A stretch of DNA of 64,000 bases from Streptomyces composti. Its GTDB lineage: Bacteria > Actinomycetota > Actinomycetes > Streptomycetales > Streptomycetaceae. The position numbers and the translations under genes were made by a program. This document shows, piece after piece, positions 41,332 through 63,080 of this stretch (position 1 is its first letter; every line of letters starts with the position of its first letter). The stretch spans positions 1 through 64,000 of the forward strand of contig NZ_JAATEM010000016.1 in NCBI RefSeq assembly GCF_012034205.1. Reading direction: 5' to 3'. Under the pieces are notes generated by a model. It was not told the origin of the DNA. It searched no databases and saw nothing but the letters and a program-made list of their open reading frames with translations.

Positions 41332-41470
41332 TCACCCCGGCCGGACGATCGACTGCACCTCGCTGCGGGCGTGCGGGGCGCAGGAGCCGACGTCCCGGCC
41401 GACGCCGCTGCCGCGGAACCCGCCGAACGTCGCCCCCCGTGTTCCGGCCCGCGGTCACCGTGACGCCGAT
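41332..41470 (-). pseudogene. aldehyde dehydrogenase C-terminal remnant
   Basis: On the minus strand, frame-adjusted translation gives VTVTAGRNTG then, across a G-run frameshift, FGGFRGSGVGRDVG...SEVQSIVRPG and a stop. FGGFRxSGxGRDxG is the C-terminal signature of aldehyde dehydrogenases. Only about 45 codons remain, so most of the gene is gone. The rest of the gap to afsR (41283-41675) has no other gene. Confidence 0.65.
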
Positions 41471-41675
41471 CTGACGGACCGTCTGCTGTGCGTTCACGGG
41501 GTCCTGCACGGCATGATCTGTGCGAACGAGCGGGCGGACGGTGTGAGAACCCTGTGTGGACCTGGACCCAGGGCCTGTGACGGGCGTCTCGCACGGCTGA
41601 CGCATCTGCCGTGAACAAGGCAAACTGGCCTGGTTGCTCGGAGCGCGCAGCAGGACGCATAGGGGGACTCACTGC

Positions 41676-44654
41676 ATGGACGGTGTACCGCGAGTGCCGG
41701 AGCAGCGGAGGTCCGCATCCGGAGCGGACTCCGGGTCCGGTTCCGGGGCCGGACCCGAAGGGCTGCGCTTCGGCGTGCTCGGTCCGGTGCGCGCCTGGCG
41801 CGACGGCGAGCCGCTCGCCACCGGCAGCCCCCAGCAACGCGCTCTGCTCGCGGCCCTGTTGCTGCGCGAGGGCCGTACCGCCACGGCGGCCGAACTGATC
41901 GACGCCCTGTGGGGCGAGGAGCCGCCGTCGCAGGCGCTGGCGGCGGTGCGCACCTACGCGTCCCGGCTGCGCAAGGTGCTGGACCCGGGCGTGCTGGTCA
42001 GCGAGTCCGGCGGCTACGCGGTGCGCGGGCTCGGCGAGGGCGCCCTGGACCTGGCGGTGGCGCAGGAGCTGGCGGCCGAGGCGGAGAAGGCGCGCAACAC
42101 CGGGGACCTGTACCGTGCGCGGGAGGCGCTGCGGCAGGCGCTGGCCCTGTGGGACGGGGAGACACTGGCCGGAGTGCCGGGCCCGTACGCGCAGGCGCAG
42201 CGGGTCAGGCTCGAGGAGTGGCGGCTGCAACTGCTCGAGACGCGGCTGGACCTGGACCTGGAGCAGGGCTGCCACGCGGAGGCCGTCTCCGAGCTGACCG
42301 CGCTGACCGCGGCGCATCCGCTGCGGGAGCGGCTGCGCGAGCTGCTGATGCTGGCGCTGTACCGCAGCGGACGGCAGGCGGAGGCGCTGGCCGTCTACGC
42401 GGACACGCGGCGGCTGCTGGCGGAGGAACTGGGCGTGGACCCGCGCCCGGAGCTGCGCGAGCTGCAGCAGCGGGTGCTGCGCGCGGACCCCGCGCTGGCC
42501 GAGCACTCCGCCCCCGAGGCCGAGCCCGCCACCACCCGCGTCCGCCCCGCCCAGCTCCCCGCCTCCGTCCCCGACTTCACGGGCCGGGCCTCCTTCGTCC
42601 GCGAACTGGGCGACCTGCTCTCCTCGGCGGACGGCAGGGTGATGGCGGTGTCCGCGCTGGCGGGCATCGGCGGCGTCGGCAAGACGACCCTGGCGGTGCA
42701 CGTCGCCCACCAGGCCCGGCCCGCCTTCCCCGACGGCCAGCTCTACGTCGACCTGCAGGGCGCGGGCCCGCGCGCCGCGGAGCCGGAGACGGTCCTGGGC
42801 TCCTTCCTGCGGGCCCTCGGCACGCCCGACTCGGCGATCCCGGACACGCTGGAGGAGCGGGCGGCGCTGTACCGCTCGGTGCTGGACGGACGCCGGGTGC
42901 TGGTCCTTCTGGACAACGCGCGGGACGCGGCGCAGGTGCGCCCCCTCCTGCCCGGCACGGAGGGCTGCGCCGCCCTGGTGACCTCCCGGGTGCGCATGGT
43001 GGACCTGGCCGGCGCCCACCTGGTCGACCTGGACGTGATGTCCCCCGACGAGGCGCTCGCGCTGTTCACCAGGATCGTGGGCGAGGAGCGGGTGGCCTCC
43101 GAACGCAAGGCCGCCCTCGACGTCGTCGCCGCCTGCGGCTTCCTGCCGCTGGCCATCCGCATCGCGGCGTCCCGTCTCGCGGCCCGCCGCACCTGGACGG
43201 TCTCCGTCCTGGCGGCGAAGCTCGCCGACGAACGGCGGCGCCTGGACGAACTCCAGGCGGGCGACCTGGCGGTCAAGGCCACGTTCGAGCTGGGCTACGG
43301 CCAGCTGGAGCCGGCCCAGGCCCGGGCCTTCCGCCTGCTGGGTCTGGCCGACGGCCCCGACATCTCCCTGGCCGCCGCGGCCGCCGTCCTCGACCTGCCG
43401 CTCGAGGAGACGGAGGACCTGCTGGAGTCCCTGGTCGACACGTCCCTGCTGGAGTCGGCGGCCCCCGGCCGCTACCGCTTCCACGACCTGGTCCGCCTCT
43501 ACGCGCGTGCATGCGCGGAACGCGACGAACACCCCCCGAGCGAACGGGACGCGGCGATGTCCCGCCTCCTCGACTTCTACCTGGCGACCGCGGCGAAGGT
43601 CTACGCGATCGAACGGCCGGGGGACCGGCTGGTGGACCACCTGGCGGTGCCCGAGCGCCCGGCGCTCACCTTCGAGGACCGCGACAGCGCACGCGACTGG
43701 CTCTACACGGAGGCGAACTGCCTGCTGGCTCATGCCCGTCAGGCAGTGACCGGCCAGGACGCCCTGGGCAAGGCCATCGACCTGCTGTGGGCCGCCCTCG
43801 ACATCTCCGAGTCCGGGGCGAATCCCAAGGAGTACGAGTCCACGGCGGGAGCGCTGCTGGAGGCGGCCCAGCGGCTCGGGGTGCCGCGGGTCGAGGCACG
43901 GGCACTGATGACCCTGGCGCACGCGCACCTGGACGGCGGCCGGTTCGACATGGCCGACGGGGAGGCGGAACGGGTCATCCGCCTCGCCCACGAGGCCGTC
44001 GACATCCTGCCGGTGTGCTGGGCGCACAACGCCCGGGGCGTCATCGCGCTCTACCAGGGCCGCCACGAGGACGGGGAGGCACATCTCTCCGAGGCCATCG
44101 AGCACTTCCGCGCCCTGGGCGACCGCCCGGGCGAGGCCAGCGCGCTGTGCAACCTCTCACGCATCCACCTGGCCATGGGGCGCACCCGGAGCGCGGTGGC
44201 ACTGGCGCAGGAGGGCATCGCCATCTACGACGCGATGGGCAACTCCATGCGCGGCGCCAACGGACGGTATGCGCTGGGCATGGCCCTCACGCAGAGCGGC
44301 CGGCTCGACGAGGCGGCGGAACGGCTCCTGGAGGCGCTGAGCGTCTTCCGCGAGAGCCGGCAGCGGCTGTGGGAGGGCATGACCTTGTTCCGTCTGGCGG
44401 AGGTCGACATCGCCGCCCGCCGCTTCGGACAGGCGGCCAGCAACGCGGAGATGGCGCTGACCGTCCTGCGCGGCATCGGCGGCGAGTGGCGCCGGGGGAA
44501 CGTTCTGACCGTGCTCGGGCACGCCCTCACCGGCATCGGTCAGACCGGCCGGGCACAGGTGTGCTGGCAGGACGCCCTGGAGATCTACGAGGAGCTGGGC
44601 TCACCCGAGGCACCCGCGGTACGGGAGCTTCTCAACCCCGTCAGCGCGGCCTGA
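41676..44654 (+). CDS. afsR: AfsR, SARP-NB-ARC-TPR global regulator of secondary metabolism
   Basis: A 992-residue regulator. A SARP winged helix (LRFGVLGPVRAWRDGEPLAT, about 30-50, with SRLRKVLDPG) and BTAD domain (about 120-265) are followed by an NB-ARC ATPase (Walker A GIGGVGKTTL, about 330; ATP-dependent switch VLVLLDNARDAAQVRP) and C-terminal TPR-like repeats. In S. coelicolor AfsR is phosphorylated by AfsK and other kinases, which raises its DNA binding, and it activates afsS. Both afsS and afsK are here in the known order. ATG 41676 (MDGVPRVPEQ) has AGGGGG upstream. It is most likely the afsR orthologue. Confidence 0.93.
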   Translation: MDGVPRVPEQRRSASGADSGSGSGAGPEGLRFGVLGPVRAWRDGEPLATGSPQQRALLAALLLREGRTATAAELIDALWGEEPPSQALAAVRTYASRLRKVLDPGVLVSESGGYAVRGLGEGALDLAVAQELAAEAEKARNTGDLYRAREALRQALALWDGETLAGVPGPYAQAQRVRLEEWRLQLLETRLDLDLEQGCHAEAVSELTALTAAHPLRERLRELLMLALYRSGRQAEALAVYADTRRLLAEELGVDPRPELRELQQRVLRADPALAEHSAPEAEPATTRVRPAQLPASVPDFTGRASFVRELGDLLSSADGRVMAVSALAGIGGVGKTTLAVHVAHQARPAFPDGQLYVDLQGAGPRAAEPETVLGSFLRALGTPDSAIPDTLEERAALYRSVLDGRRVLVLLDNARDAAQVRPLLPGTEGCAALVTSRVRMVDLAGAHLVDLDVMSPDEALALFTRIVGEERVASERKAALDVVAACGFLPLAIRIAASRLAARRTWTVSVLAAKLADERRRLDELQAGDLAVKATFELGYGQLEPAQARAFRLLGLADGPDISLAAAAAVLDLPLEETEDLLESLVDTSLLESAAPGRYRFHDLVRLYARACAERDEHPPSERDAAMSRLLDFYLATAAKVYAIERPGDRLVDHLAVPERPALTFEDRDSARDWLYTEANCLLAHARQAVTGQDALGKAIDLLWAALDISESGANPKEYESTAGALLEAAQRLGVPRVEARALMTLAHAHLDGGRFDMADGEAERVIRLAHEAVDILPVCWAHNARGVIALYQGRHEDGEAHLSEAIEHFRALGDRPGEASALCNLSRIHLAMGRTRSAVALAQEGIAIYDAMGNSMRGANGRYALGMALTQSGRLDEAAERLLEALSVFRESRQRLWEGMTLFRLAEVDIAARRFGQAASNAEMALTVLRGIGGEWRRGNVLTVLGHALTGIGQTGRAQVCWQDALEIYEELGSPEAPAVRELLNPVSAA

Positions 44655-44671
44655 CAACCCGGCACGCCCGG

Positions 44672-44705: not shown

Positions 44706-44789
44706 CGACTCAGTCGATCCGTCGCGTCGGGGGGCAGACGGGTCGGCGTCAGGGCCGTGAGCCTGCGAACTAGGGTTTGAGCGGCCGAA

Positions 44790-45300: not shown

Positions 45301-45454
45301 GCCTGCGCTCCCGCCCCGCAGCTGGTGGCGCTCGGCAAGCTGCCCGGCGAACGGCAGGCGGAACTGTCCGCCGGGCGGGAGCGGGGTGTGTTCCGGACGC
45401 GGTAGAGCGGGCCCGGTTTGTGCAGACCCGAGGCGGGGCCGGGATGCGGAGCGG

Positions 45455-46215: not shown

Positions 46216-48606
46216 TCAGCTGGTGCGCGCCGTCCCCGTGCCCTTCTCCGCGTCCAGCGCGTAGACGCACCGGTCCTTGCTGCAGGCGTAGACGACGCCG
46301 TCGCGGACGACCGGGGAGCCGGTGATCTCGCCACCGGTGGCGAGCTTCCAGCGCAGGCGGCCGTCGTCGGCCTTGAGCGTGTAGAGCAGGTGGTCCGTCG
46401 AGCCGAAGTGGATGCGGCCCTCGGCGACCGCGGGGGCGCCGACGATCTCGCCGCCCGCCTGGAAGCGCCACTTGGGCGTGCCGGTGACCGCGTCCAGGGT
46501 GTAGACGGCCTTGCCGCTGCCGACGTGCACATGGCCCGCGGCGACCAGGACGGGCTCGATGGAGGAACGGGCCTCGGTGGCGATGCGCCAGCGGTCGCGG
46601 CCGTCGGTGGCGTCCAGGGCGTAGACCGTGCCGAGGTAGTCGGCGAGATAGACGCCGCCTCCGGTCACCGCGGGGCCGGGGACGAACGTCGGCGGGCACA
46701 GGAAGACCGCGGGCGCCTCGAAGTGCCAGCGGACGTGGCCCCCGGCGACATCCAGCGCGATGACCCGGGTGCCGGCGGAGACGTAGACGTAGCCGTCCGG
46801 TGCCTGGGTCAGGCGCACGGGCACGCCGCCGCAGGAGGCCGCGTCCCCGATGGGGTAGGACCAGCGCTCGTCGCCGGTGCGGGCGTCGAGGGCGCGCAGC
46901 CGGGCGTCCTGCCAGAGGTAGACGGTGCCGTCGTGCAGGGCGGGGCCGGCCTCGGGGGACTCGAAGTCGGTCTGGCAGCCGGTGATCTCCCACAGCTTCT
47001 GCCCGTTGGACGCCTCCCAGCCCTGGGCGCCGCCTCCGCGGGTGCCGGTGACGACGGTGCCGCGCTCGGCCCTGAGCGAGTACACCCAGGCGTCGGTGTT
47101 CAGCCGCCACAGGTCACTGCCCTCGCGGGCGTCCAGGGCGAACAGGGTGGGCCCGTCGGAGGCGTGGATGCGGCCGTCGGCGACGGCCATGGACCAGGCG
47201 ACGTCGCGGGTCTTGAAGCGGCGCCGGCCGGTGGCCACGTCGAGCGCGTGCACCTCGAAGGAGGTGACGTAGACCAGGTCGCCGTCGACGGCGGGGGTGC
47301 CCCACAGGTCGTTGGACATGCGGAACCGCCACGGCCGCCAGCCGCTGGGCTGCTCGGGCGGCGCGGGGGCCGCCGCGGGCGCGGCACCGCCGGCGACCGC
47401 CGGGTCGGCGCCGTTGACGCCGGGCCGCGGCTTGGTCCAGGAGGCGGCGAGGGCGGCCTCGGGCGGGGGCGGTTTGACGGCGGCGGCCCGTACGTCGGCG
47501 ACGCGCGGGCCCGGCCCGATGGGCACCGGGGCGCCGGCCAGCCGGACCGGGCCGTTGTCGGGGGCGCCGGCCGCGGCGCCCACCGGGGCGGGCGCCGACG
47601 GGGGCGGCGGGATGACCGGGTCGTGCGGCGGCGGGGGCGGCACCTGCGGGCGGGCGCCGCGGCCCTGGCCGGAGCCCTGCCCCTGGTCGGGCCGTGGCTT
47701 GGCCGCGGGGCGGCCGTTGCGGCGGGCCTCGATGAGGCTGACCGCAGCCTCGGGCAGCCAGGCCGAGGCGGTGCCGCTGTCGTCGGAGCCGGAGCCGAAC
47801 AGATGCGGGGCGAGCTGCGCCTGGAGGTCGGCCGGGGTGGGCCGGGCCGAGGGCTCCATCTGCATGCAGCACTCGATCAGCGGGCGCAGCTCCTCCGGCA
47901 GTCCCTCCAGGTCCGGGCCCTCGCGCAGCAGCATGAACACGGTCTCGACCGGGTTGGCGCCGTGGAAGGGCGCGTGTCCGGTGGCGGCGAAGACGAGGGT
48001 GGAGCCGAGGGAGAAGACGTCGCTGGCGCCGGTGACGCTGCGGGAGTCCTTGGCCTGCTCCGGGGACATGTAGGCGGGCGTGCCGACGGCGACGTTCGTC
48101 ATCGTCAAACGCGTGTTCGACACACCCGAGGCGATGCCGAAGTCGATCACCCGGGGGCCGTCCTCGACCACCAGGACGTTGCTTGGCTTGAGGTCGCGGT
48201 GGACCAGTCCGGCGCCGTGGATGGACTGCAGCGCCTCCGCGACCCCGGCCGCCAGCCAGCGCACCGCCTTGGCCGGCAGCGGCCCGCACTCGTTCACTAT
48301 CTCCTCGAGCGAGGGAGCGGGCACATAAGCGGTGGCCAGCCACGGCACGGCGGCGCGCGGATCGGCGTCCACCACGGCCGCGGTGTAGAAGCCGGAGACG
48401 GCGCGGGCCGCCTCGACCTCGCGGGTGAAGCGCACCCGGAACAACTGGTCCTCGGCCAGTTCGGTACGGACCGTCTTGATCGCCACGCGCCGGCCGGACG
48501 CCGAGCGTGCGAGATAGACCAGCCCCATGCCGCCGGCTCCCAGCCGTCCCAGCACCTCGAACGGCCCGATACGCCGCGGATCGTGCTGCGTCAGCTGATC
48601 CACCAC
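46216..48606 (-). CDS. afsK: AfsK, Ser/Thr protein kinase with C-terminal beta-propeller
   Basis: A 796-residue Hanks-type kinase. The catalytic domain (about 14-270) has glycine loop [12 protein letters not shown], Lys44 (VAIK), [14 protein letters not shown] and the activation segment [20 protein letters not shown]. With GTG 48606 as start, Thr168 falls on the known S. coelicolor autophosphorylation site (from memory). A proline/alanine-rich linker (300-430) leads to a PQQ-like beta-propeller with repeated LDA-x-(T/D)G-x-x-RW blades (about 450-796), probably a sensor domain. No TM helix is seen, and S. coelicolor AfsK is loosely membrane-associated. It phosphorylates AfsR. Confidence 0.93.
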
Positions 48607-48805
48607 TTGCCTGCCACCTCCCCGTACGAGTCGCGCCACCACATGTGCCCGCGACCGAAGTGCAGCGTCTCACCACCGCACCGCCGTGGCGGCACGCACC
48701 CCGATTCTTCCTGGCCGGGGCCTTCGTTGCGAACCCGCCGACAATCGGGGTGTCAGGTGTTAAACAAGACATTCTGCCCGGCTGGTCGGGGTCCCCGTGC
48801 CCCGC

Positions 48806-49537
48806 TCAGCGGCGCAGCAGCGCGAAGGACGCCCCTTGATTGTCGGTGACGACCGCGGCCGTGCCGTAGGACGTCTCGAAGGGCGGCACCTGCACCCGGC
48901 CGCCGAGCCGTACCGCCTCCTGCGCGGCGGCGGCCACGTCCTCGACGGCGAAGTGGACCAGGAAGTGGGGCGGCATCTCGGCGGGGAAGACGTCGGAGAC
49001 CGGGGCGCGGCCGAAGTCGGGCCGGGCCTCGGGCCCGAACAGGGCGTCGTGGAAGAGGCCGCCGTAGAAGGTGTCGGCCGCCTCGGTGTCGTTGGTGTAG
49101 AGCTGCGCCCAGGCGAAGGTGCCCGGCTCGTGGCGGCGGCCGAAGCCGGGGTGGGTGCCGGGCTGCCACAGGGCGAAGACGGCCCCCTGGCCGTCGGTGA
49201 CCAGCGCGTGCACGCCCAGCTCGCCGAGGGGCAGGGGCGCGGCGACGATCCGCCCGCCGGCCGTGCGGATGCGCTGGCACAGGTTCTCGGCGTCCGGGGT
49301 CGCGAGGAACACCGTCCACACGGTGGGCAGCCGCCCGTCGGCCTTGCGCCGCAGGGAGGCGACGGGCTCACCGTCCTTCAGCGCCCGCACCCCTTCCCTC
49401 GGCAGATCCGGCTGGTCCTGGAAGGTCCACCCGAAGAGCTCCCCGTAGAAGCGCTTGCCGGCCGCCACGTCGGGCAGCTGCGCGTCCACCCAGCACGGGG
49501 TGCCCTCCCTGTACTCCGATGCCCTGTTTTCGGCCAT
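48806..49537 (-). CDS. VOC-superfamily (glyoxalase-like) protein, two-domain
   Basis: A 243-residue protein with two vicinal-oxygen-chelate domains. The first includes CWVDAQLPDVAAGKRFYGEL and FGWTFQDQP, the second FAWAQLYTNDTEAADTFYGGL and HFAVEDVAAAAQEAVRLGGR. These fold as metal-dependent lyases/dioxygenases or antibiotic-binding proteins; no specific activity can be read. It resembles streptomycete hydroxylase-like VOC proteins. Divergent from a TetR gene. Confidence 0.85.
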   Translation of the reverse strand: MAENRASEYREGTPCWVDAQLPDVAAGKRFYGELFGWTFQDQPDLPREGVRALKDGEPVASLRRKADGRLPTVWTVFLATPDAENLCQRIRTAGGRIVAAPLPLGELGVHALVTDGQGAVFALWQPGTHPGFGRRHEPGTFAWAQLYTNDTEAADTFYGGLFHDALFGPEARPDFGRAPVSDVFPAEMPPHFLVHFAVEDVAAAAQEAVRLGGRVQVPPFETSYGTAAVVTDNQGASFALLRR

Positions 49538-49659: not shown

Positions 49660-50307
49660 ATGACAGGACAAGTGCGAACCGTCGACGGCCGCGTGGCCGG
49701 CCGGCGTGGGCAGGCGACCCGGCAGAAGCTGCTCGACTGCCTCAGCGAGATGCTCAGCTCTTCCCCCTACCGGGACGTCAAGGTGATCGACGTCGCCCGC
49801 AGGGCGGGCACTTCGCCCGCGACGTTCTATCAGTACTTCCCCGACGTCGAGGGCGCCGTTCTGGAGATCGCGGAGCAAACGGCGGCCGAGAGCTCGTCGT
49901 TGACCGAGCTGGTCGAGGGCCGCTCCTGGGTCGGCAAGGCCGGCTGGCAGACCGCGCAGGACCTGGTCGACGGCTTCCTGGACTTCTGGCGGAAGAACGA
50001 CGCCATTCTGCGCGTGGTCGATCTCGGGGCGGCCGAGGGCGACAAGCGCTTCTACAAGATCCGCATGAAGATCCTCAACTCGGTGAACAACTCGCTCGCC
50101 GACGCCGTCGCCGACCTCCAGGCCAGGGGCCGGGTCGACAAGGAGGTGAACCCGGCCGCGATCGCCGGTTCGCTGGTCGCGATGCTCGCGGCGGTGGCCT
50201 CGCATCAGAAGGGCTTCACCTCCTGGGGCGTCAAGCAGGCCGAACTCAGGCCCAACCTCGCCCTGTTGGTCCACCTGGGAATCACCGGCAGGAAGCCGAC
50301 GAAGTAG
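49660..50307 (+). CDS. TetR family transcriptional regulator
   Basis: A 215-residue regulator. The HTH comprises LSEMLSSSPYRDVKVIDVAR and RAGTSPATFYQYFPDVEGAV (residues about 28-67). The rest is all-helical, with an LNSVNNSLADAVADLQARGR segment typical of KstR-like and similar TetR proteins that respond to acyl-CoA ligands. This hints that it may have controlled the now-decayed acyl-CoA genes downstream. Divergent from the VOC gene. Confidence 0.88.
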   Translation: MTGQVRTVDGRVAGRRGQATRQKLLDCLSEMLSSSPYRDVKVIDVARRAGTSPATFYQYFPDVEGAVLEIAEQTAAESSSLTELVEGRSWVGKAGWQTAQDLVDGFLDFWRKNDAILRVVDLGAAEGDKRFYKIRMKILNSVNNSLADAVADLQARGRVDKEVNPAAIAGSLVAMLAAVASHQKGFTSWGVKQAELRPNLALLVHLGITGRKPTK

Positions 50308-52174: not shown

Positions 52175-52329
52175 CCGCTGCCCCCGCGCGGCAGCCGGCC
52201 CGCGCGGGGCCCGTGCGCCTCCCGCCGCGTCAGCGGGCCTCCCCTGTCCCGGCGGTCTCGAGGTACTCGGTGGTCTCGAAGAGACCTGCGCGGGCGGCGG
52301 CATGCGCCCGGAGCCGGTGGGGCGGGCCG

Positions 52330-52804
52330 AAGAGGAGTGCTGGGCACCGCCGAGTACGTGTCGCACGCGGCGATGTCCGGGTGGCCGGACTTCACGGTGT
52401 CCCCGGCCGCGGTCAGCGGGCCGCGCGCGTTCCGGCGGGCGGGGGTGCGGCCTGAGGAGACGGACCTCGCCGAGCTGTACGACACCTTCACCTGCATGAC
52501 GCTGGTGACGCTGGAGGACCTGGGCTTCTGCGCCAAGGGCGAGGGCGGGGCCTTCGTGGAGAAGGGGCGGCTGCGGGTCGGGGGCGGCGGGCTGCCGGTG
52601 AACACCGACGGGGCGGCCTGTCCGCCCAGCATCCCGGAAAGCGGGGGCTGTTCCTGCTGGCGGAAGCGGTACGGCAGCTGCGGGGCGAGTGCGGACAGCG
52701 GCAGGTGCGCCGGGCCGACGGCTCACTGCCCCGGCCGGCCGTGGCCTCCGGCACCGGCGGCTGGTTCTGCTCGTCGGGGACGGTGGTGCGGGCCGGGCGG
52801 GAGA
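52330..52804 (+). pseudogene. thiolase (SCP-x/acetyl-CoA acetyltransferase type) remnant
   Basis: The plus strand encodes GTAEYVSHAAMSGWPDFTVS...DLAELYDTFTCMTLVTLEDL...VNTDG, then in another frame GLFLLAEAVRQLRGECG...SGTGGWFCSSGTVV, the C-terminal third of a thiolase-domain protein. The N-terminal two-thirds is absent and one frameshift lies near 52612. It abuts the start of the PNPOx-like gene. Confidence 0.75.
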
Positions 52805-52812: not shown

Positions 52813-53478
52813 ATGGGAACCGATCTTCACGAGCTGCTGCGGTCACTGCGGGTGTGGGACCCGGAGGTGACCGAGCTGCCGGCCTTCGACCCGGCGGGCG
52901 CGCCCGGTGAACCGCTGGCGCTGTTCACCCGCTGGTTCGCCGAGGCGGTGGCGGCCGGCCAGACCGAGCCGCACACCATGTCGCTGGCCACGGCGGACGC
53001 GGACGGCCTGCCGGACGTGCGCATCGTGACGCTGCACGGCGCCGACGCCGGCGGCTGGGCCTTCGCCACCCACGCGCACAGCCGCAAGGGCGCCCAGCTC
53101 GCCCGACGCCCGTATGCGGCCCTGGCCTTCTACTGGCCGGTGCTCGGGCGCCAGGTGCGGCTGCGCGGGCCCGTGGAGCAGGCGCCCGCCGAGGAGGCGC
53201 AGGCCGATCTGCACGCCCGCTCCACCGCCGCCCTGGCCGCCGCGCTGACCGGACGGCAGAGCGGGGTGCTGGGCTCGCTCGAGGAGCTGGCCCGGGCGTC
53301 GGAAGCGGCCTGGGAGCGGGCCGAGCGGGAACCGGACACGCCGGTGGAGTCCTGGACGCTGTACCGGCTGCGGCCGGACGAGGCGGAGTTCTTCCAGGGC
53401 GAGGAGCGGCGCCGGCACGTACGGCTGCGCTACCGGCGGACCGGCGAGGGCTGGTCCCGGGAGCTGCTGTGGCCGTAG
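52813..53478 (+). CDS. pyridoxamine 5'-phosphate oxidase-like flavoprotein
   Basis: A 221-residue split-barrel protein. The segment PHTMSLATADADGLPDVRIV (residues about 56-75), GWAFATHAHSRKGAQLARRP (about 84-103), LAFYWPVLGRQVRLRGPVEQ and C-terminal LYRLRPDEAEFFQGEERRRH are PdxH-like FMN-binding and phosphate-binding motifs. It may oxidise pyridoxamine/pyridoxine phosphate, or be one of the PNPOx-family paralogues of unknown substrate. ATG 52813 fits; the upstream frame is thiolase remnant. Confidence 0.85.
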   Translation: MGTDLHELLRSLRVWDPEVTELPAFDPAGAPGEPLALFTRWFAEAVAAGQTEPHTMSLATADADGLPDVRIVTLHGADAGGWAFATHAHSRKGAQLARRPYAALAFYWPVLGRQVRLRGPVEQAPAEEAQADLHARSTAALAAALTGRQSGVLGSLEELARASEAAWERAEREPDTPVESWTLYRLRPDEAEFFQGEERRRHVRLRYRRTGEGWSRELLWP

Positions 53479-55101: not shown

Positions 55102-55500
55102 TCAAACCCGCCGCACCGACCGGAACAGGGGAAGGTCCGCGCGGAAGGTCACCTCCGGCTCCGTCCCGGGGGGCGGGCCGCCCGCCGCCTCCGCGTCCAC
55201 CAGCTCCGTCATCGTCCTCGGCCCCTCCGCGAGGTCGACGACGGCGGCGGTGCAGGGGGTGCGGGCCGCGAACGGCGGCAGGTCGTTGCGGTGCACCACG
55301 GACCAGGTGGAGAGGGTGGCCCGGCCGCTCGCGGTCTCCCGGGTGACGTGCTCGCTCAGCAGTGGGGCAGAACTCGCGCGGGCAGTGGTGGGCACGGCCG
55401 CAGTCGCCGCACCGGCGGACGAGCAGCCGTCCCCGGTCCGCGGCCTCCAGGAGGTCCTGGTGAAGGCGTCTGCCCCGGGCAGCTTGGGGTTCCCTGATCC
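55102..55500 (-). pseudogene. frameshifted DUF35 OB-fold/Zn-ribbon protein
   Basis: Minus-strand fragments in two frames compose a typical acyl-CoA-associated OB-fold protein: LPGADAFTRTSW, then DRGRLLVRRCGDCGRAHHCP (Zn ribbon), then SEHVTRETASGRATLSTWSV...TPCTAAVVDLAEGPRTMTEL. At least two frameshifts interrupt it. Such proteins are normally encoded next to SCP-x thiolases, and a thiolase remnant lies 2.3 kb away. Confidence 0.75.
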
Positions 55501-55698
55501 GGATGCGTTCTCCCTCTGCGCCTGCCGGGGTCGCGGGCCGGTACACACCTGACGGTAAGTCAGCTTCACTGTTTCCGCCCACCGCCCGCACGACCGCGCC
55601 GCAGGCCATGGGCGGGTCCGCACAGATGTGATCGATCCGCAACCAATTGTGGTCTTGACCGATACCCATCAAGCAGGTGCGTGATTACGCTCGCGCTC

Positions 55699-56922
55699 AT
55701 GGCCGACACCACCGACCACACCGACCCCACCGGCAGATCCGCGCAGCCCGCGAGGCCCGCCCCGCCCGACCGCCCCGTCTACGTCATCGGCGGCGGCCCC
55801 GGAGGGCTCGCCGTCGCCTACGCGCTCCGCTCGCGGGGGCTCCGGGCCGTCGTGCTGGAGCGCTCCGAGCAGGTGGGCGCCTCCTGGCGGCGCCACTACG
55901 ACCGGCTGCGGCTGCACACCACCCGGCGCCAGTCGGCCCTGCCCGGCCTGCCGATGCCGCGCCGCTTCGGGCGCTGGGTGGCACGCGACGACGTGGTCCG
56001 GTACCTGGAGAAGTACGCCGAGCACCACCGTCTGGAGATCGTCACCGGGGTGGAGGTCTCCCGGGTCGAGCGCTCCCCGGACGGCACCGGCTGGCTGCTG
56101 CGCGCCACCGGGGGCCGCGAGCTGACCGGCGCCGCAGTCGTCGTCGCCACCGGCTACAACCACACCCCGCGGGTGCCCGACTGGCCCGGCCGGGACGGCT
56201 TCACCGGCGAGTTCCTGCACGCCTCCGCCTACCGCAACCCGGCCCCCTTCACCGGCCGGGACGTGCTGGTGGTGGGCGTTGGCAACACCGGCGCCGAGAT
56301 CGCCGTCGACCTGGCGGAGGGCGGCGCCTCCCGGGTGCGGCTCGCGGTGCGCACCGCCCCGCACATCGTGCGCCGCTCCACCGCCGGCTGGCCCGCCCAG
56401 TACTCGGGGATCCTGGTGCGGCACCTGCCGGTGAAACTGGTCGACCGGATCAGCCGGCTGCAGGCGAAGGTGGCGGTGCCCGACCTCTCCGCGCACGGCC
56501 TGCCCCGCCCCGAGACCGGCCTGTACAGCAGGGTCCTGGAGGGCGCCATCCCGGTGCAGGACGTGGGGCTGATCGACGCCGTGCGCAGCGGCCGGGTGGA
56601 GGTCGTGGCGGCCGTGGAGGGCTTCGAGAACGACAAGGTCCTCCTCGCCGACGGCACCCGCGTCGGCCCGGACGCGGTGATCGCGGCCACCGGGTACGAG
56701 CGGGGCCTGGAGCCGCTCGTCGGGCACCTCGGGGTCCTGGACGAGCGCGGCAGACCCGTGGCCCACGGCGCCCGCACCCCCGAGGGCGCCCCGGGCCTGT
56801 ACTTCACCGGCTACACCAACCCCATCAGCGGCAACCTCCGCGAGCTGGCCATCGACGCCCAGCGCATCGCCAGGGCGGTGAGCCGGGACGGCGCGCCGGG
56901 GGTGTCCCGCCTTCCGGGGTGA
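55699..56922 (+). CDS. flavin-containing monooxygenase-like NAD(P)/FAD oxidoreductase
   Basis: A 407-residue FAD enzyme. FAD-binding GxGxxG in VYVIGGGPGGLAVAYALRSR (residues about 27-46), the NADPH Rossmann motif VLVVGVGNTGAEIAVDLAEG (about 190-209) and the YNHTPRVPDWPGRDGFTGEF and ATGYERGLEPL segments resemble YUCCA/FMO proteins. The strict FMO fingerprint FxGxxxHxxx(Y/F) appears modified (FTGEFLHASAY). Probably oxygenates a small substrate. ATG 55699 chosen; GTG 55681 adds six residues. Confidence 0.85.
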   Translation: MADTTDHTDPTGRSAQPARPAPPDRPVYVIGGGPGGLAVAYALRSRGLRAVVLERSEQVGASWRRHYDRLRLHTTRRQSALPGLPMPRRFGRWVARDDVVRYLEKYAEHHRLEIVTGVEVSRVERSPDGTGWLLRATGGRELTGAAVVVATGYNHTPRVPDWPGRDGFTGEFLHASAYRNPAPFTGRDVLVVGVGNTGAEIAVDLAEGGASRVRLAVRTAPHIVRRSTAGWPAQYSGILVRHLPVKLVDRISRLQAKVAVPDLSAHGLPRPETGLYSRVLEGAIPVQDVGLIDAVRSGRVEVVAAVEGFENDKVLLADGTRVGPDAVIAATGYERGLEPLVGHLGVLDERGRPVAHGARTPEGAPGLYFTGYTNPISGNLRELAIDAQRIARAVSRDGAPGVSRLPG

Positions 56923-57174
56923 GCGGCAAACTCCGGTTCCCCACCGCCGAACACCGGGTCGCTCACCTCAACTGGCCGTGTTCTTCCCGGTCCTGACATA
57001 CCGTCCGTTCAGTACCTGACAGGGCGTCAGTCGTCGGCGGCTGTCTCGCAGGAGCGGACGAAGCCATCCTGGGATCGACCCACGGCACCCTCACCACCGA
57101 CTACCGCCGCACCCGGGCCATCGCCTGCGGCGAGCGGACCGGTCCCCCCGTGCACGGCAGGCCGGGCGAGGCGG
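56923..57174. other. intergenic region between the monooxygenase and CoA-ligase remnant
   Basis: No intact gene. ATACCGTCCGTTCAGTACCTGACAGG around 57000 resembles TetR-family operator DNA before acyl-CoA genes and may be a leftover promoter of the decayed operon. This is weak evidence. Confidence 0.3.
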
Positions 57175-57800
57175 GCGACACCGATGTCAGCGGGCGCCCG
57201 CGGTACGCCGAGGTCCCCGATCCGGACCGGCTGTTCCGGCCGGAGTCGGTGGCCGTGATCGGTGCCTCGGACGCCGAGGGGCGACCGCACACCGGCATCA
57301 CCCGGCAGCTGCTCGACTGGACCGGACGGGTCGGCGCCCGGCTGCTCCCGGTGCATCCGCGCCGCCAGCGGTCTTCGGCATCCCCCGCTCGCCCTCCGTG
57401 GCCGACCTGCCGGAACAGGTCGACGTCGCCGTCATGCCGGTCGGCGACCCGCTGCCGGTGGTCGAGGAACCGGCCGCGGCCAAGGCCCGCTCCGCGGTGG
57501 TGTTCGCCTCCGGGTTCGCCGAGACCGGCGACGAGGGTGCCGCCGCCCAGGAGCGGCCGGCCGCGGCCGTCGCGGATCCGGGATGCGGCGGCTCGGCCCC
57601 AACACCGACCTCAACGCCTTCGAGCGCTTCCGGGGCGGCCTCGAAGGACCCGCGATCGCCCCGATCACCCAGTCCGGCCACCAGGGGCGGCCGGTCTTCG
57701 CCCTCCAGGAGAGCGGCATCCGCGTCTCCCACTGGGCGCCCACCGGCAACGAGGCCGACCCGGAGACCGCCGGCTTCCTCTCCTGCTTCGCCACTCCGCC
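57175..57800 (+). pseudogene. acetate-CoA ligase-like (NDP-forming) acyl-CoA synthetase, decayed
   Basis: Three frames successively encode one protein: PDRLFRPESVAVIGASDAEG...RVGARLLPVHPRRQ; then FGIPRSPSVADLPEQVDVAV...AKARSAVVFASGFAET; then LGPNTDLNAFERFRGGLEGP...GHQGRPVFALQESGIRVSHW. This is the CoA-binding and succinyl-CoA-synthetase-like part of an NDP-forming acyl-CoA synthetase. At least two frameshifts occur and the C-terminal half is absent. Confidence 0.75.
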
Positions 57801-57869
57801 GATGCCGCGGATGCCGAAGATCAGGTCGAGCGCGTCGATCCCGTCGCAGCCGGTCCATGGATCCGCCAC

Positions 57870-58040
57870 GTCACCCCCCGACCAGGTCGCCCACATCACC
57901 CTCGACCGCCCCGAGGCCCGCAACGCCCTCACGCCCGGTCTGCGCGACCGCCTCATCGACTGCTGGACGGCACCTCCGCCAACCCGGACGTGCGGGCCGT
58001 GGTCCTCACCGGCACGGAGCCGGTCCGGCCACCGGATGAG
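57870..58040 (+). pseudogene. enoyl-CoA hydratase N-terminal remnant
   Basis: DQVAHITLDRPEARNALTPG...RDRLIDCWT, then after a frameshift ANPDVRAVVLTGTE. These are the N-terminal 50-60 residues of a crotonase-fold protein. The rest, including the oxyanion-hole region, is gone, and the fragment runs up to the convergent MFS gene. Confidence 0.7.
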
Positions 58041-58053
58041 GCACGGGTCCCCC

Positions 58054-59373
58054 TCACCGGGCCACGGACACCCGCACCTCCGCCGTGCCCCGCCGGATCA
58101 CCAGGGCCATCAGCGCCGCCGCGGCGCACAGCGCGCCCGAGGCGTACCAGACGATGTCGTAGGTGCCGAAGACGTCGCGGGCGAGCCCGCCGAGGAAGGC
58201 GACCAGGGCGGCGCCGACCTGGTGGGAGGCGAGCACCCAGCCGAAGACGATGGCGCTGTCCTCGCCGTAGTGCTCGCGGCACAGGGCGAGGGTGGGCGGC
58301 ACGGTGGCGACCCAGTCGAGGCCGTAGAAGACGATGAACAGGACCATCGGCGGATGGACGCTGGGCGCCAGCAGCAGCGGCAGGAAGAGCAGCGACAGGC
58401 CGCGCAGGGCGTAGTAGACGGCGAGCAGGCGGCGGGCCTCGAAGCGGTCGGTGAACCAGCCGGAGGCCACCGTGCCGACGACGTCGAAGACGCCGATGAC
58501 GGCGAGCAGGGAGGCGGCGGCCCGCACCGGCATGTGGGCGTCGTGCGCGGCGGGCACGAAGTGAGTCTGGATCAGGCCGTTGGTGGAGGCGCCGCAGATC
58601 GCGAAGGTGCCGGCGAGCAGCCAGAACGGGCCGGTGCGGGCGGCCGAGGCCAGCACCCTCAGCGCCCGCCGGGCGGCGCCGGGCACGGGCGCGGGCCTGG
58701 GCACGAACTCGGCTGCCCCGTAGGGCTCGAGACCCACGTCGGCCGGATGGTCGTGCAGCAGCAGCCAGACGAAGGGCACCACGGCGAGCGCGGCGAGGGC
58801 CACGGTGACGGCGGCGGGCCGCCAGTCGTAGGACTCGACGATCCAGGCCACCAGCGGCAGGAAGATCAGCTGCCCCGAGGCGGACGCGGCGGTGAGGATG
58901 CCGCTGACCAGGCCCCGGCGCTCGGTGAACCAGCGGTTGGTGACGGTGGCGGCGAAGGCCAGCGCCATGGACCCGGTGCCGAGGCCCACCAGCAGCCCCC
59001 AGCACAGCAGCAGTTGCCAGGCCGCGGTCATCCACACGGTCAGGCCCGAGCCGGCCGCGATCACCACCAGGGCGACGGCGACGACCCGGCGGATGCCGAA
59101 GCGGTCCATCAGCGCGGCCGCGAAGGGCGCGGTCAGCCCGTACAGGGCCAGGTTGATTGAGACGGCGGCGCCGATGGTGCCGCGGGACCAGCCGAACTCG
59201 GTGTGCAGGGGGTCGGTGAACAGTCCGGGAACGGCGCGGAAGGCCGCCGCGCCGATGATCGTCACGAAGGTGACGGCGGCGACGAACCAGGCGCGATGGA
59301 TCCGCGGGCGGGCGCGCCGGGTGCCGGCCCCGGGCCCGGTGGCGGGTGTCTCGGTGGTCGTTGTCTGGGTCAC
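58054..59373 (-). CDS. MFS transporter, monocarboxylate/OFA-like
   Basis: A 439-residue transporter with about 12 TM helices. AFRAVPGLFTDPLHTEFGWS followed by RGTIGAAVSINLALYGLTAP is typical of the oxalate/formate-monocarboxylate (OFA/MCT) MFS group (WS-x-x-x-x-G), as is the loop TNRWFTERRGLVSGILTAAS. Acidic or acyl substrates may be moved; uptake of a catabolic substrate for the now-decayed genes is plausible. ATG 59373. Confidence 0.85.
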   Translation of the reverse strand: MTQTTTTETPATGPGAGTRRARPRIHRAWFVAAVTFVTIIGAAAFRAVPGLFTDPLHTEFGWSRGTIGAAVSINLALYGLTAPFAAALMDRFGIRRVVAVALVVIAAGSGLTVWMTAAWQLLLCWGLLVGLGTGSMALAFAATVTNRWFTERRGLVSGILTAASASGQLIFLPLVAWIVESYDWRPAAVTVALAALAVVPFVWLLLHDHPADVGLEPYGAAEFVPRPAPVPGAARRALRVLASAARTGPFWLLAGTFAICGASTNGLIQTHFVPAAHDAHMPVRAAASLLAVIGVFDVVGTVASGWFTDRFEARRLLAVYYALRGLSLLFLPLLLAPSVHPPMVLFIVFYGLDWVATVPPTLALCREHYGEDSAIVFGWVLASHQVGAALVAFLGGLARDVFGTYDIVWYASGALCAAAALMALVIRRGTAEVRVSVAR

Positions 59374-59444: not shown

Positions 59445-60527
59445 ATGCTGCCGCATCGTGTCGTCGTCCTGGCCCTCGACGGGCTGCTCCCCTTCGAGCT
59501 GGGCATCCCGCACCGCATCTTCGGCCGCCCGCGGGACGCTCAGGGCCGCCCGCTGTACGAGGTGGCCACCTGCTCCGTCCGGCCGCCGGGGCCCGTGGAG
59601 ACCGACGCCGACTTCACCCTGCACGTCCCGCACGGCCCGGAGGCGCTGGCCACGGCCGACACGGTGATCGTCCCGGCCTCCTACGAGCTGGGCCCGGTCT
59701 ACGAGCGGGGCGAGCTGACCGGCGAACTGGCCGACGCCCTCGCCCTGATCCGGCCGGGCACCCGCATCGCCTCCATCTGCACCGGCGTCTACGTCCTGGC
59801 CGCCGCCGGACTGCTCGACGGGCGCCCGGCGACCACCCACTGGGCCGACGCCGAGCGCTTCCAGCGGCTCTTCCCGCGCGTCAAGGTCGACCCGGACGTG
59901 CTGTTCATCGACGACGGCGACATCCTCACCTCGGCGGGCGTGGCGGCCGGCATCGACCTGTGTCTGCACATGCTGCGCAGCGACCACGGTGCCGCCGTGG
60001 CCAACGACGTCGCGCGCAGGACGGTGGTGCCGCCGCACCGCGACGGCGGGCAGGCGCAGTACATCCAGCGCCCGGTGCCCGATCCGCAGCAGGCGTCCAC
60101 CACCGCCGCCCGCGCCTGGGCGCTCGGCCGGCTGCACGAGCCGATCCAGCTGCGCGACATGGCCGCGCGGGAGTCGATGTCGGTCCGCACCTTCACCCGC
60201 CGCTTCCGCGAGGAGGTCGGCGTCAGCCCCGGGCAGTGGCTCACCCAGCAGCGGGTGGAGCGCGCCCGGCACCTGCTGGAGACCACCGACCTGTCGGTGG
60301 ACCAGGTGGCCCGCGACGCCGGGTTCGGCACCGCGCAGTCGATGCGCCAGCACCTCCAGGCGGCCCTGGGCGTGACCCCGACCGCCTACCGGCGCACCTT
60401 CCGCGCCAACGGCACCGCCACCACCGGCGGGGGCGGCGGGGGCGCCGCCCAGAAGGTGAGCACCGCGCGGACGACCCGGCCGGCCTCCGCGTCCGCGCAG
60501 GCCTTGGCGAAGTCCTCCACCGGGTAG
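59445..60527 (+). CDS. GlxA-type AraC regulator (DJ-1/PfpI plus AraC HTH)
   Basis: A 360-residue regulator. The N-terminal DJ-1/PfpI domain (about 1-190; IASICTGVYVLAAAGLLDGR with the nucleophile-elbow cysteine) precedes two AraC helix-turn-helices (LRDMAARESMSVRTFTRRFR; LSVDQVARDAGFGTAQSMRQ). A normal member would end soon after PTAYRRTFRAN; here about 36 extra residues (TTGGGGGGAAQKVSTARTTR...) follow, encoded over the antisense of an alcohol-dehydrogenase remnant. The original stop may have been lost in the rearrangement. Divergent from the MFS gene. Confidence 0.88.
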   Translation: MLPHRVVVLALDGLLPFELGIPHRIFGRPRDAQGRPLYEVATCSVRPPGPVETDADFTLHVPHGPEALATADTVIVPASYELGPVYERGELTGELADALALIRPGTRIASICTGVYVLAAAGLLDGRPATTHWADAERFQRLFPRVKVDPDVLFIDDGDILTSAGVAAGIDLCLHMLRSDHGAAVANDVARRTVVPPHRDGGQAQYIQRPVPDPQQASTTAARAWALGRLHEPIQLRDMAARESMSVRTFTRRFREEVGVSPGQWLTQQRVERARHLLETTDLSVDQVARDAGFGTAQSMRQHLQAALGVTPTAYRRTFRANGTATTGGGGGGAAQKVSTARTTRPASASAQALAKSSTG

Positions 60528-60617
60528 GTGCGGCCGACCAGTTCGCCGAGGAGCAGCCGCCCGTGCCGGCACAGCTCGGCGTACCGGGCGATGTCCCGCT
60601 GTGGCCGGGAGGAGCCC
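60446..60617 (-). pseudogene. zinc-type alcohol dehydrogenase C-terminal remnant
   Basis: The minus strand, opening after a TAG at about 60618, reads RDIARYAELCRHGRLLLGEL...TYPVEDFAKACADAEAGRVV and RAVLTF, the last 55 residues of a Zn-dependent medium-chain alcohol dehydrogenase. The rest of the gene is missing. It overlaps the 3' end of the AraC gene on the other strand. Confidence 0.7.
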
Positions 60618-60639
60618 TAGCGGCGGCCGAGGATCGATG

Positions 60640-61109
60640 ACATCGCCCGGGCCCGCGGCACGGACCGGCTCCAGGGCACACGGTCGCCCCCGAGGATCTG
60701 GAGGCGGCCGAGGAGCCGGCGGGCACCCGGGTGCGGGCCGGTGACGTGGTGCCGGCGCGGACCGGGCAGATGCGGCTCTGCCTGGACGGGGACCGCCAGG
60801 GCCACGCCCATCCCTCGCCCGGCCTGTCGATCCGCACCTCGGAGTGGTTCCACGCGCGGGACGTGGCGGCGGTGGCGAGCGACACCCTGACCTTCGAGAT
60901 CTTCCCGCCGGAGATACCCGGGTTGTGGCTGCCGGTGCATGCCCTGCACCTATTGGGAGGCGGCCATGCCGCAGGGGCAGAACCGGGATCTCGAAAAGTT
61001 GTCCACAGCCTGTGGAGAAATCGGTCGCTGCGCGCTCCTGCTGTCGGCGACGCCGGAACCCTTCGCGGGCGGGACGGGCGCCCCCGTCGCGCCCGTCGCC
61101 GTCCTCTGA
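60640..61109 (+). pseudogene. cyclase family protein, truncated and frameshifted
   Basis: RVRAGDVVPARTGQMRLCLD...LSIRTSEWFHARDVAAVASD and TLTFEIFPPE, then in another frame PQGQNRDLEKLSTACGEIGR...LLLSATPEPFAGGTGAPVAP and stop. This is the C-terminal part of a metal-dependent cyclase/hydrolase (PF04199 type). A frameshift near 60955 and loss of the N-terminus inactivate it. Confidence 0.75.
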
Positions 61110-61628: not shown

Positions 61629-62105
61629 TCAGACCGCCTCGTACGCCAGCCCGTCACAGGTCGGGGTCCGGCCGGCGCAGGCCGGGGTGGCGGGCCCCGG
61701 TTCGGGGCAGCGGTCGAGTTCGCACCAGATGCGCTTGCCGGTGCCCTCGCAGCTCCAGCCCCAGCGGTCGGCGAGGCCGTCGACCAGGGCGAGCCCGCGC
61801 CCGCCGGTCGCCTCGCCGTCCACCCAGCGCGGGACCGGCGCCTGGGCGCTGCGGTCGGCCACCTCCAGGCGGACGGTGGCGGTCTCGGCCGCGGCGCCCG
61901 GCAGGGACAGGCGCAGCACGGCCGGACAGCCGGTGTGCACCACGGCGTTGGTGACGAGTTCCGAGACCAGCAGGATCAGGGTCTCGGCGAGGGACTCGTC
62001 TGCCCCTATCCCGGCCCCGGCCAGCCGTGAGCGGGCCCACCGCCTGGCCCGTCCCACCTCAGCGGGGTCGGGCCGGATCTCCAGCTGCACTTGAAGCACC
62101 TGCAC
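61629..62105 (-). CDS. RsbW-like ATP-binding anti-sigma regulatory protein
   Basis: A 158-residue GHKL ATPase-fold protein. The N box (LLVSELVTNAVVHT, about 45-58), G1 box (LEVADRSAQAPVPRW) and G2 box (GGRGLALVDGLADRWG) are those of HATPase_c anti-sigma factors. Streptomycetes have dozens of these, many paired with STAS antagonists. A partial STAS-like gene lies at the right window edge but is not adjacent. GTG 62105; a second GTG two codons in is possible. Confidence 0.88.
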   Translation of the reverse strand: MQVLQVQLEIRPDPAEVGRARRWARSRLAGAGIGADESLAETLILLVSELVTNAVVHTGCPAVLRLSLPGAAAETATVRLEVADRSAQAPVPRWVDGEATGGRGLALVDGLADRWGWSCEGTGKRIWCELDRCPEPGPATPACAGRTPTCDGLAYEAV

Positions 62106-62564
62106 CGCTCACACCATCCGAACCGGCGGACACTTGGACTCGCGCCTCACGAGGGCCACGATCGTAGCCATTTTCTGCATGGCCAGAACAACGGCCGGGT
62201 CAGGGGTCACGGAACGTGAATCCCTGTTGGGACAGCATGGTTGACGTACAGTCACGCCAACAAGCGCTTCGGGCATATTCCAGCGCGAAGGAGTACCCGT
62301 ACGGCATACTGTGCGACGCTCGCCGCGAGGAGTCGAACAGGCGGCAACCGTCGGCCGGAGCGCCCGATCGGCGCTCACATCCACTCGCATCCCACACAAG
62401 GTACCGGAGCAGAGGGCCGACTCCGGGCCGTGACGGGACGTCCCGAGGACACAACCCGGTATCAACGCTCCGTGATCAAGCAATGCCACGATCCGTGACA
62501 TCCGCCGGGCGCGCGAGGGCGAGCACCGCAGGCGGCGCCGGTTTCCGCCGTCCCGGGCGAGCAG
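62106..62564. other. intergenic region upstream of the anti-sigma-like gene
   Basis: No convincing gene was found. The DNA is less GC-rich than its surroundings around 62200-62480, consistent with a promoter region for the minus-strand gene. A short minus-strand ORF (62200-62454) has no recognisable product and was left out. Confidence 0.4.
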
Positions 62565-62885
62565 ACCGGCGGCGAGGAGTTTCTCACTGTCCGTCACTCC
62601 ACCCGGACGACGGGTGCGCACCCGGGCCCGCTTGAGGTGCAGACGCAGCTCCGCCGCCCAGGTGAAGCCCATGCCGCCGTGCACCTGGAGGCAGTCGCGG
62701 GCACCGACCGCGCACCGCGGCCTCGTCGGCGAGCAGCCGGGCGGCGGCGATGTCGGCCGGGTCGGCGGTGACGGTGGCGGCGTAGACGGCGGCGCGCGCC
62801 GTCTCGGTCCGCACCTGGATGTCCGCGCACAGATGCGCGACCGCCTGGAAGGCTCCGACGGCCCTGCCGAACTGCTGACGGGTCC
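62565..62885 (-). pseudogene. acyl-CoA dehydrogenase C-terminal remnant
   Basis: RQQFGRAVGAFQAVAHLCAD...TADPADIAAARLLADEAAVR, then after a frameshift RDCLQVHGGMGFTWAAELRL...TDSEKLLAAGLLA. The QQFGR-x-IG-x-FQ-x-x-x-H and QVHGGMGFTWE patterns are acyl-CoA dehydrogenase hallmarks. The N-terminal two-thirds is missing. Confidence 0.75.
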
Positions 62886-62904
62886 GGGCGTGTTGCGCGG
62901 TCGG

Positions 62905-63080
62905 TGCCCGCGGCGGGCGTCGAGCCGCCGTCGCTGGAGGAGCTGGTGACCTTCCTGCGCGCGGAAGGGCTGTCCGTGCACGAGCTGCCGGAGCGGCTGG
63001 AGGGGACGGAGGCCCTTCCGCGCGGCCGGACGCTGCGCAAAATGCTCAGGCACGAGCTGCGCGAGCGTAACGGCGGTACG
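62905..63080 (+). pseudogene. AMP-dependent acyl-CoA synthetase C-terminal remnant
   Basis: PPSLEELVTFLRAEGLSVHE then LPERLEGTEALPRGRTLRKM and LRHELRE. This is the C-terminal AMP-binding subdomain of a CoA ligase, with arginine-threonine (GRTLRK) where the catalytic GKxLK lysine should be. It is adjacent to the acyl-CoA dehydrogenase remnant in the opposite direction. Confidence 0.7.

Follow-up and report, generated by a model that had tools for sequence, protein, structure and literature searches.

An apparently part-eroded 26-gene catabolic locus in Streptomyces composti

In the 64,000-nucleotide window analysed here (bases 1–64000 of contig 9 of Streptomyces composti, a 6.5-Mb genome in a draft assembly of 98 contigs), the stretch between positions 41335 and 63080 holds 12 stubs of catabolic genes interleaved with intact genes (Table 1). 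Codon-usage segmentation, trained on the window itself and used to find intact genes as opposed to frame-shifting pieces, places broken coding pieces in shifting frames between intact genes at 44.6–45.5, 51.7–52.8, 55.0–55.5, 57.0–58.06 and 60.4–63.1 kb. A sequence-only reading of the same DNA had proposed at least eleven catabolic remnants on both strands, with frameshifts as well as truncations; the count now stands at 12, the addition being the C-terminus of a second enoyl-CoA hydratase, and both kinds of damage are borne out.

The identity of the stubs was established in two ways. Pfam models were run, with stops read as X, on six frames of 44590–45500, 50900–55702 and 60440–63110, four frames of 56870–58100 and three frames of 41300–41760; the family names of the intact genes in the window likewise come from Pfam scans. 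In the broken stretches, these scans named fragments of Thiolase_C_1, F420H2_quin_red, zf-ChsH2, OB_ChsH2_C, AMP-binding_C, Cyclase and Acyl-CoA_dh_1, and a CoA_binding_2 fragment scored just under the Pfam cut-off. Five stubs, namely those of aldehyde dehydrogenase (ALDH), Zn-alcohol dehydrogenase (ADH), the two enoyl-CoA hydratases and AMP-dependent CoA ligase 2, gave no Pfam match in the frames scanned, but match their syntenic orthologs at ~48–79% identity over 25–62 residues. The orthologs come from syntenic stretches of up to 20 kb, with extensions, in 19 genomes of the same genus, in which genes were called and each was searched against the window. An intact syntenic ortholog was found for every stub in at least some of the relatives examined, so that the comparison with relatives keeping the cluster, suggested by the sequence-only reading, returned whole orthologs at the corresponding places.

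Six relatives are fully covered, and all six carry all 26 catabolic genes at 92% coverage or more, in islands spread over 48.9–69.0 kb; in the relatives, the catabolic genes are whole, and their order and intact neighbours match those of the window. The span from the ALDH gene to the EF-hand gene measures 22.3 kb in the window, compared with 48.9–69.0 kb in the six intact genomes, some genes private to these being included. There are at least 8 places where the window lacks genes or gene parts that 6/6 of these relatives hold; the junctions were compared with G140, G009 and G276 through blastn pieces and residue positions, and the number of places is a lower bound. In addition to these losses, the stubs contain seven clear frameshifts in the 1,119 codons compared, a weak eighth one, and a single in-frame stop, in the ADH stub. 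In contrast, no in-frame stop occurs in 4,139 compared codons of the twelve intact neighbours, in agreement with the earlier description of the intervening genes as intact. Chance is also a poor account of the breaks: under a strict penalty, direct frame switches on the same strand number 0 in positions 1–41300 and 5 from 41301 onward, and under a loose penalty, 3 and 8, respectively.

Table 1. Stubs, missing stretches and intact genes at the locus (window coordinates).
Feature	Position	Strand	Remarks
ALDH stub, last 33 of 483 residues	41335..41433	-	73–79% to L052/L053/L055/L057/L064; intact ortholog is Aldedh
AMP-dependent CoA ligase 1 stub, C-terminal ~61 of 523 residues	45133..45318	-	58–68% identity; AMP-binding_C
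Enoyl-CoA hydratase 2 stub, residues 224–249 of 254	45307..45384	+	joined to AMP ligase 1 stub; intact ortholog is ECH_1
DDN (F420-dependent), nearly full length	51737..52180	-	frameshift near 51960; Pfam and relatives
SCP-x-type thiolase stub, residues 229–380 of 384	52337..52788	+	86–87% to L029; Thiolase_C_1 in two frames; frameshift near 52614
DUF35 (ChsH2-like) remnant	55111..55497	-	zinc-ribbon and OB parts in different frames, shift near 55350; neighbour ORF149 gone
NDP-forming CoA ligase stub, residues 1–246 of 742	57066..57801	+	frameshifts near 57364 and 57576
Enoyl-CoA hydratase stub, ~residues 2–53 of 266	57850..57987	+	48–54% identity; flavin reductase that follows in relatives gone
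ADH stub, residues 285–346 of 346	60452..60637	-	74–79% identity; one in-frame stop
Cyclase (PF04199) stub, residues 165–308 of 308 (152–164 weakly)	60639..61106	+	frameshift near 60955, perhaps another near 60674 (weak); joined to ADH stub
Acyl-CoA dehydrogenase 3 stub, residues ~195–305 of 310 (L049 numbering)	62556..62898	-	frameshift near 62706
AMP-dependent CoA ligase 2 stub, residues 450–504 of 504	62916..63080	+	joined to acyl-CoA dehydrogenase 3 stub
Deletion, ALDH body to 5' end of amidohydrolase-2a gene	41440..41500		~7.4 kb relative to G140; blastn pieces meet at ~41451–41455
Deletion, AMP ligase 1 to enoyl-CoA hydratase 2			~3.8 kb; thiolase 2 and DUF35b between them gone
Deletion, DDN to thiolase	52254..52336		~1.9 kb; acyl-CoA dehydrogenase 1 and thiolase residues 1–228 gone
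Missing ORF149 beside DUF35
Deletion within NDP-forming ligase			~1.5 kb
Missing stretch, enoyl-CoA hydratase to MFS			includes flavin reductase
Deletion, ADH to cyclase			~3.6 kb
Deletion, acyl-CoA dehydrogenase 3 to AMP ligase 2			~4.2 kb
SARP/BTAD-NB-ARC-TPR regulator	41634..44654	+	intact; backbone
Ser/Thr kinase with PQQ propeller	46219..48642	-	intact; backbone
Glyoxalase-family protein	48809..49537	-	intact; backbone
TetR (TetR_C_38) regulator	49660..50307	+	intact; backbone
PNPOx-family protein	52813..53478	+	intact; backbone
FMO-like flavoprotein	55681..56922	+	intact; backbone
MFS transporter	58057..59373	-	intact; kept in 11/13 selected negatives
AraC/DJ-1 regulator	59445..60527	+	intact; kept in 11/13 selected negatives
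HATPase_c_2 protein	61632..62105	-	intact; backbone
EF-hand protein	63100..63609	-	intact; backbone

The substitution pattern sets the stubs apart from the genes between them. Changes private to a branch were counted at codon positions 1+2 and at position 3, in frame-masked alignments, with G276 as the relative and G013 as the outgroup. On the window branch, the ratio of the two is 232:202 in the 12 stubs and 370:579 in the 12 neighbours (p = 6e-7); on the G276 branch, the same genes yield 83:147 and 251:510, respectively (p = 0.38). The masked comparison thus detects relaxed selection in the remnants and none in the neighbours. The masked ratio for the stubs, 1.15, replaces the value of 1.50 that was obtained when unmasked alignments ran through the frameshifts. 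As this ratio lies below the roughly 2:1 expected under free drift, the constraint on the stubs was probably lifted only part-way along the branch leading to the window.

The decayed genes do not appear to be backed up elsewhere in the genome, as judged from a check that covered three of the 26 lost proteins (thiolase, NDP-forming ligase and acyl-CoA dehydrogenase 4). The thiolase has no match in its own genome at E 1e-60, and the best other relatives of the NDP-forming ligase and of acyl-CoA dehydrogenase 4 show 33% and 45% identity, respectively; the search for an intact copy, also proposed earlier, therefore ended without a close copy of these three. A Thiolase_N search of the same genome found nothing on contig 9, a model that the intact thiolase orthologs fail as well, and a plasmid search with acyl-CoA dehydrogenase 4 brought up matches that are all below 60% identity.

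The lost genes travel together. All 80 best loci kept for the neighbouring TetR gene (more matched) belong to Streptomyces, and 47 named loci with lengths of 20.5 kb or more, together with G027, were surveyed at 70% coverage, 33 shorter loci being left out; each locus was taken with a 10-kb flank around TetR, so that genes far from TetR run off the edge in some. AMP ligase 1, thiolase 2, DUF35b, hydratase 2 and acyl-CoA dehydrogenase 1 are found in 40/40 thiolase-positive and in 0/8 thiolase-negative loci, even though four of the five sit beyond the kinase–glyoxalase–TetR block. DDN follows with 37/40 and 0/8, whereas the kinase and the glyoxalase (39/40 and 8/8) and PNPOx (38/40 and 8/8) are indifferent to the state of the thiolase. 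Lower counts among the positive loci, for DUF35 (32/40), ORF149 (27/40) and FMO (16/40), may partly reflect the locus edge. One negative locus, L074, contains part of thiolase 2 and hydratase 2.

A second survey compared all 26 genes between the six fully covered intact genomes and 13 selected thiolase-negative genomes; G213 and G026 were covered only partly, and G020 is itself partial. Among the negatives, 336 of the 338 cells are empty at the survey thresholds, the two exceptions being stubs in G188; with laxer search settings, this genome also yields a cyclase piece, and G332 yields ADH–cyclase pieces. The genes for SARP, kinase, glyoxalase, TetR, PNPOx, FMO, HATPase and EF-hand are nevertheless kept in 13/13 of these genomes, GNAT2 in 9/13 and GNAT1 in 1/13. 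Inheritance is thus all-or-none in the sampled genomes, which implies a single pathway served by all the islands. The multi-step loss of one cluster that had been suspected from the remnants is supported: that there were several steps is shown by the eight or more places with missing genes, the seven frameshifts and the in-frame stop, and the joint presence and absence, with the common gene order, traces the fragments to one co-inherited system, which however consists of several islands rather than one operon.

Further stages of decay are found outside the window. G020, a genome of 10.3 Mb, retains whole thiolase, acyl-CoA dehydrogenase 1 and ADH genes, 74% of the NDP-forming ligase and 61% of acyl-CoA dehydrogenase 2, but only 6–36% of ALDH, cyclase, amidohydrolase 2b and AMP ligase 2, and it has lost the thiolase-2 island. 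L080 (a metagenome bin) and G188 both retain parts of acyl-CoA dehydrogenase 3 and AMP ligase 2. In G332, the only one of the negatives with stubs comparable to those of the window, ADH is fused to the cyclase by a deletion larger than that of the window. The breakpoints differ among the partial genomes G020, L074, L080, G188 and G332, and both measured deletions of G332 appear to contain those of the window at the same sites.

Across the genus, a thiolase ortholog is present in 276 of 392 genomes at E 1e-60, a few of the 276 being much weaker matches, and the genome of the window (G000) is negative. When the order was searched at E 1e-100 (119 genomes, 5 genera), the thiolase turned up in 67 genomes, every one of them from this single genus. 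Presence goes with genome size: the medians are 8.9 Mb for 263 genomes with the thiolase and 7.7 Mb for 108 without it (371 genomes, rounded sizes), and the gene is absent from 15/19 genomes below 6.5 Mb, a fraction that falls to 0/34 above 10.5 Mb. The number of state changes depends on the tree: at least 4 on the rpoB+gyrB tree of 25 genomes (5 if G020 is counted as present), at least 7 on the kinase–glyoxalase–TetR–PNPOx tree of 70 rows and at least 3 when ten genes of the locus are used for 23 genomes. The placement of the window varies: it is deepest in a ten-row all-negative clade of the four-gene tree, sister to G332 in the ten-gene tree, and deepest, with weak support, in a weakly held group of ten negative genomes in the rpoB+gyrB tree.

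Taken together, these comparisons point to the part-way erosion, in the window, of a 26-gene catabolic locus that lies in islands among unrelated conserved genes and is whole in other Streptomyces, a reading to which a probability of roughly 0.9 can be attached. Several observations weigh against it. All the evidence is sequence comparison, and the breaks are seen in an assembly, not in reads. The intact neighbours, too, are somewhat faster at codon positions 1+2 on the window branch than on that of G276 (405:615 versus 260:529, unmasked; p = 0.003). The 13 negatives were hand-picked for contiguous assembly (G027 separately), and most of the positives were likewise chosen, that is, non-random. 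GNAT1 is absent from 8/8 and 12/13 thiolase-negative loci in the two surveys, yet intact in the window; given this pattern and the presence of DDN in 37/40 positives, membership of the set is not sharp. The association with genome size ignores kinship. Finally, parsimony counts cannot tell gain from loss; it is the stubs in six genomes (the window, G332, G188, L074, L080 and G020) that give loss as the direction.

The alternative that survives best concerns the clean negatives, in which homologous recombination might have put an empty allele in place of the locus in a single step, with in-place erosion confined to the window and the partial genomes. At the survey thresholds, 12/13 negatives have no stub (the laxer search adds G332) despite the dispersal of the islands. 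The four-gene locus tree, moreover, places G108, G134, G152 and G262 with G357 and L115, whereas in the rpoB+gyrB tree they fall with the window, G332 and other negatives, a conflict of the kind that recombination would give. However, in-place erosion is visible in all six genomes with stubs, the two measured deletions of G332 appear to enclose those of the window, as later stages would, and a test on the ten-gene locus tree (23 rows) leaves the grouping of ten negatives seen with rpoB+gyrB unrejected (p-AU 0.34). One-step replacement thus seems the less probable course, although it is a serious contender.

As for what the locus encoded, the intact version comprises CoA ligases, acyl-CoA dehydrogenases, enoyl-CoA hydratases and two thiolase–DUF35 pairs, along with luciferase-like and F420 enzymes, a flavin reductase and two proteins of the PtmU3/DitZ-type amidohydrolase fold. 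The best solved relatives of these two amidohydrolase-2 proteins are DitZ (PDB 8uyr; E 8e-57 and 4e-57) and PtmU3 (PDB 6omp; 2e-40 and 1e-38); for 2b, the next relatives are a putative hydrolase (4e-19) and decarboxylases (6e-12). The metal-ligand motifs D-x-H, H, E and D-x-x-H are kept in the 2b gene of L058 aligned to PtmU3 and DitZ, the list of six ligands being taken from AibH2 in the cited part of PMC7782822. The E and DYPH motifs were found in 7 genomes for 2a and in 8 for 2b, of 9 examined (the partial G020 has none); in this count, the row of G026 under 2a is the 2b paralog, and the D-x-H pair rests on the L058 alignment. The window itself keeps neither gene. PtmU3 is described in the same part of PMC7782822 as a non-heme diiron beta-hydroxylase of diterpenoid biosynthesis that acts on CoA-ligated substrates; unlike this biosynthetic enzyme, the amidohydrolase-2 genes of the locus sit among catabolic genes, and DitZ is known here by its PDB label. 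Because two of the lost genes resemble PtmU3, a hydroxylase of diterpenoid-CoA, a cyclic terpenoid acid would be the likelier, still unproven, substrate.

The intact locus also pairs an SCP-x-type thiolase with a ChsH2-like DUF35 protein, twice, in the manner of the Sal/Ltp2 aldolases and their DUF35 partners (cited passages of PMC12329534 and PMC11321319). By this likeness, which is at the level of families, the thiolase–DUF35 pair may act as an aldolase. The sequence-only reading had left steroid, terpenoid and aromatic acids open as substrates; the terpenoid acid-CoA is the part that gained ground, whereas canonical steroid catabolism is not supported. A canonical actinobacterial steroid cluster is indeed an unlikely identity for the lost system. 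Among 20 intact-relative proteins run against NCBIfam, IpdE2 is the best model for two acyl-CoA dehydrogenases and HsaB for the flavin reductase, and a DUF35 domain copurifies with the steroid aldolase Sal (cited part of PMC11321319). However, these best scores stay below the curated cut-offs, with 208 and 145 of 450 bits for IpdE2 and 197 of 230 for HsaB. No KshAB, KstD or HsaC appeared among the matches listed in general Pfam and NCBIfam scans of part of the locus proteins, the own genome not being searched for them. In the cited part of PMC4810484, 55 of 57 Streptomyces genomes are named as lacking steroid pathways, compared with the thiolase in 276 of 392 here.

There is very little to recommend the possibility that the fragments stem from unrelated genes, or from several clusters each decaying on its own, and are close by chance: they do lie on both strands, among unrelated genes, and represent many families, but a single syntenic locus supplies the intact orthologs of them all, and these are jointly present or absent in the sampled genomes. 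Least probable of all are assembly or sequencing errors that make intact genes look broken, for which a high-GC draft of 98 contigs leaves scope, since errors would not strip tens of kb gene by gene with the edges still syntenic, the intact neighbours are free of the frameshifts seen in the stubs, codon positions 1+2 have changed to excess in the stubs, and other genomes have lost parts of the same genes at different breakpoints.

Under the erosion reading, the history of the locus can be pictured as follows. Loading of a cyclic, probably terpenoid, acid on CoA would have been followed by hydroxylation and ring opening, after which beta-oxidation and aldol or thiolytic cleavage would have shortened the pieces. 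When the lineage of the 6.5-Mb genome ceased to need the pathway, selection would have lapsed on every step at once. Deletion ends, being confined between maintained neighbours, would have removed the interiors of the islands and left stubs at their edges, where frameshifts then piled up; the five other genomes would represent other stages of the same loss.

The intact genes between the stubs show features of their own. FMO, MFS and AraC were considered as core members of the pathway and rejected, being retained in all or most of the negatives. With respect to the genes around it, the SARP/BTAD-NB-ARC regulator has the opposite orientation in G009, G140 and G276 to that in the window. Between TetR and DDN, the window carries AsnC and LysE genes (50501–51663), each present in 18/48 loci independently of the state of the thiolase, a pattern consistent with a separate small insertion or loss. 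A tRNA-Leu(gag) called by ARAGORN at 56263–56355 (+) lies inside the intact FMO-like gene; no tRNA was called in the FMO-containing loci of three relatives (L029, L031 and L038), and the call is probably false. The gap that separates the cyclase stub from the HATPase gene contains a 69-residue open frame (61170–61379, +), which was passed over by the codon model; of 21 other loci searched, 18 gave a match to the DNA of this stretch, and the frame is possibly a small protein gene. An Rfam scan of 38–64 kb gave no matches. Draft contigs (L070, L071, L076, L083, L085, G026:C10 and others) start or stop ~2 kb from TetR, inside the kinase–PQQ gene, the repeats of which may break assemblies there.

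The phenomenon itself is ordinary gene decay, unusually well caught. Truncated and frameshifted genes next to intact ones are familiar from pseudogene-rich bacterial genomes in the course of reduction, such as that of Mycobacterium leprae (cited part of PMC2753549); unlike that case, the decay here concerns one set of 26 genes in Streptomyces, jointly absent in several lineages, with stages captured. No published description of this locus was recognised in searches of an open-access library, which does not show that none exists. A broader proposal, to be taken as tentative, is that many Streptomyces possess a pathway, so far uncharacterised, by which the ring of a cyclic terpenoid acid is opened; it would employ diiron hydroxylases of the PtmU3/DitZ type on CoA esters, be encoded in several islands and be repeatedly lost as a unit; the window would then be a snapshot of its collapse, and the all-or-none inheritance would delimit its 26 genes. 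The coordinated loss amounts to a natural experiment, one that splits 26 genes seemingly of one pathway from the unrelated genes interspersed with them, and its value lies in the series of intact, half-erased and clean loci by which a single pathway is delimited. Generic names, such as acyl-CoA dehydrogenase, thiolase and amidohydrolase, would in this way turn into one testable pathway, with PtmU3/DitZ as a chemical lead and with strains that have it and strains that do not.

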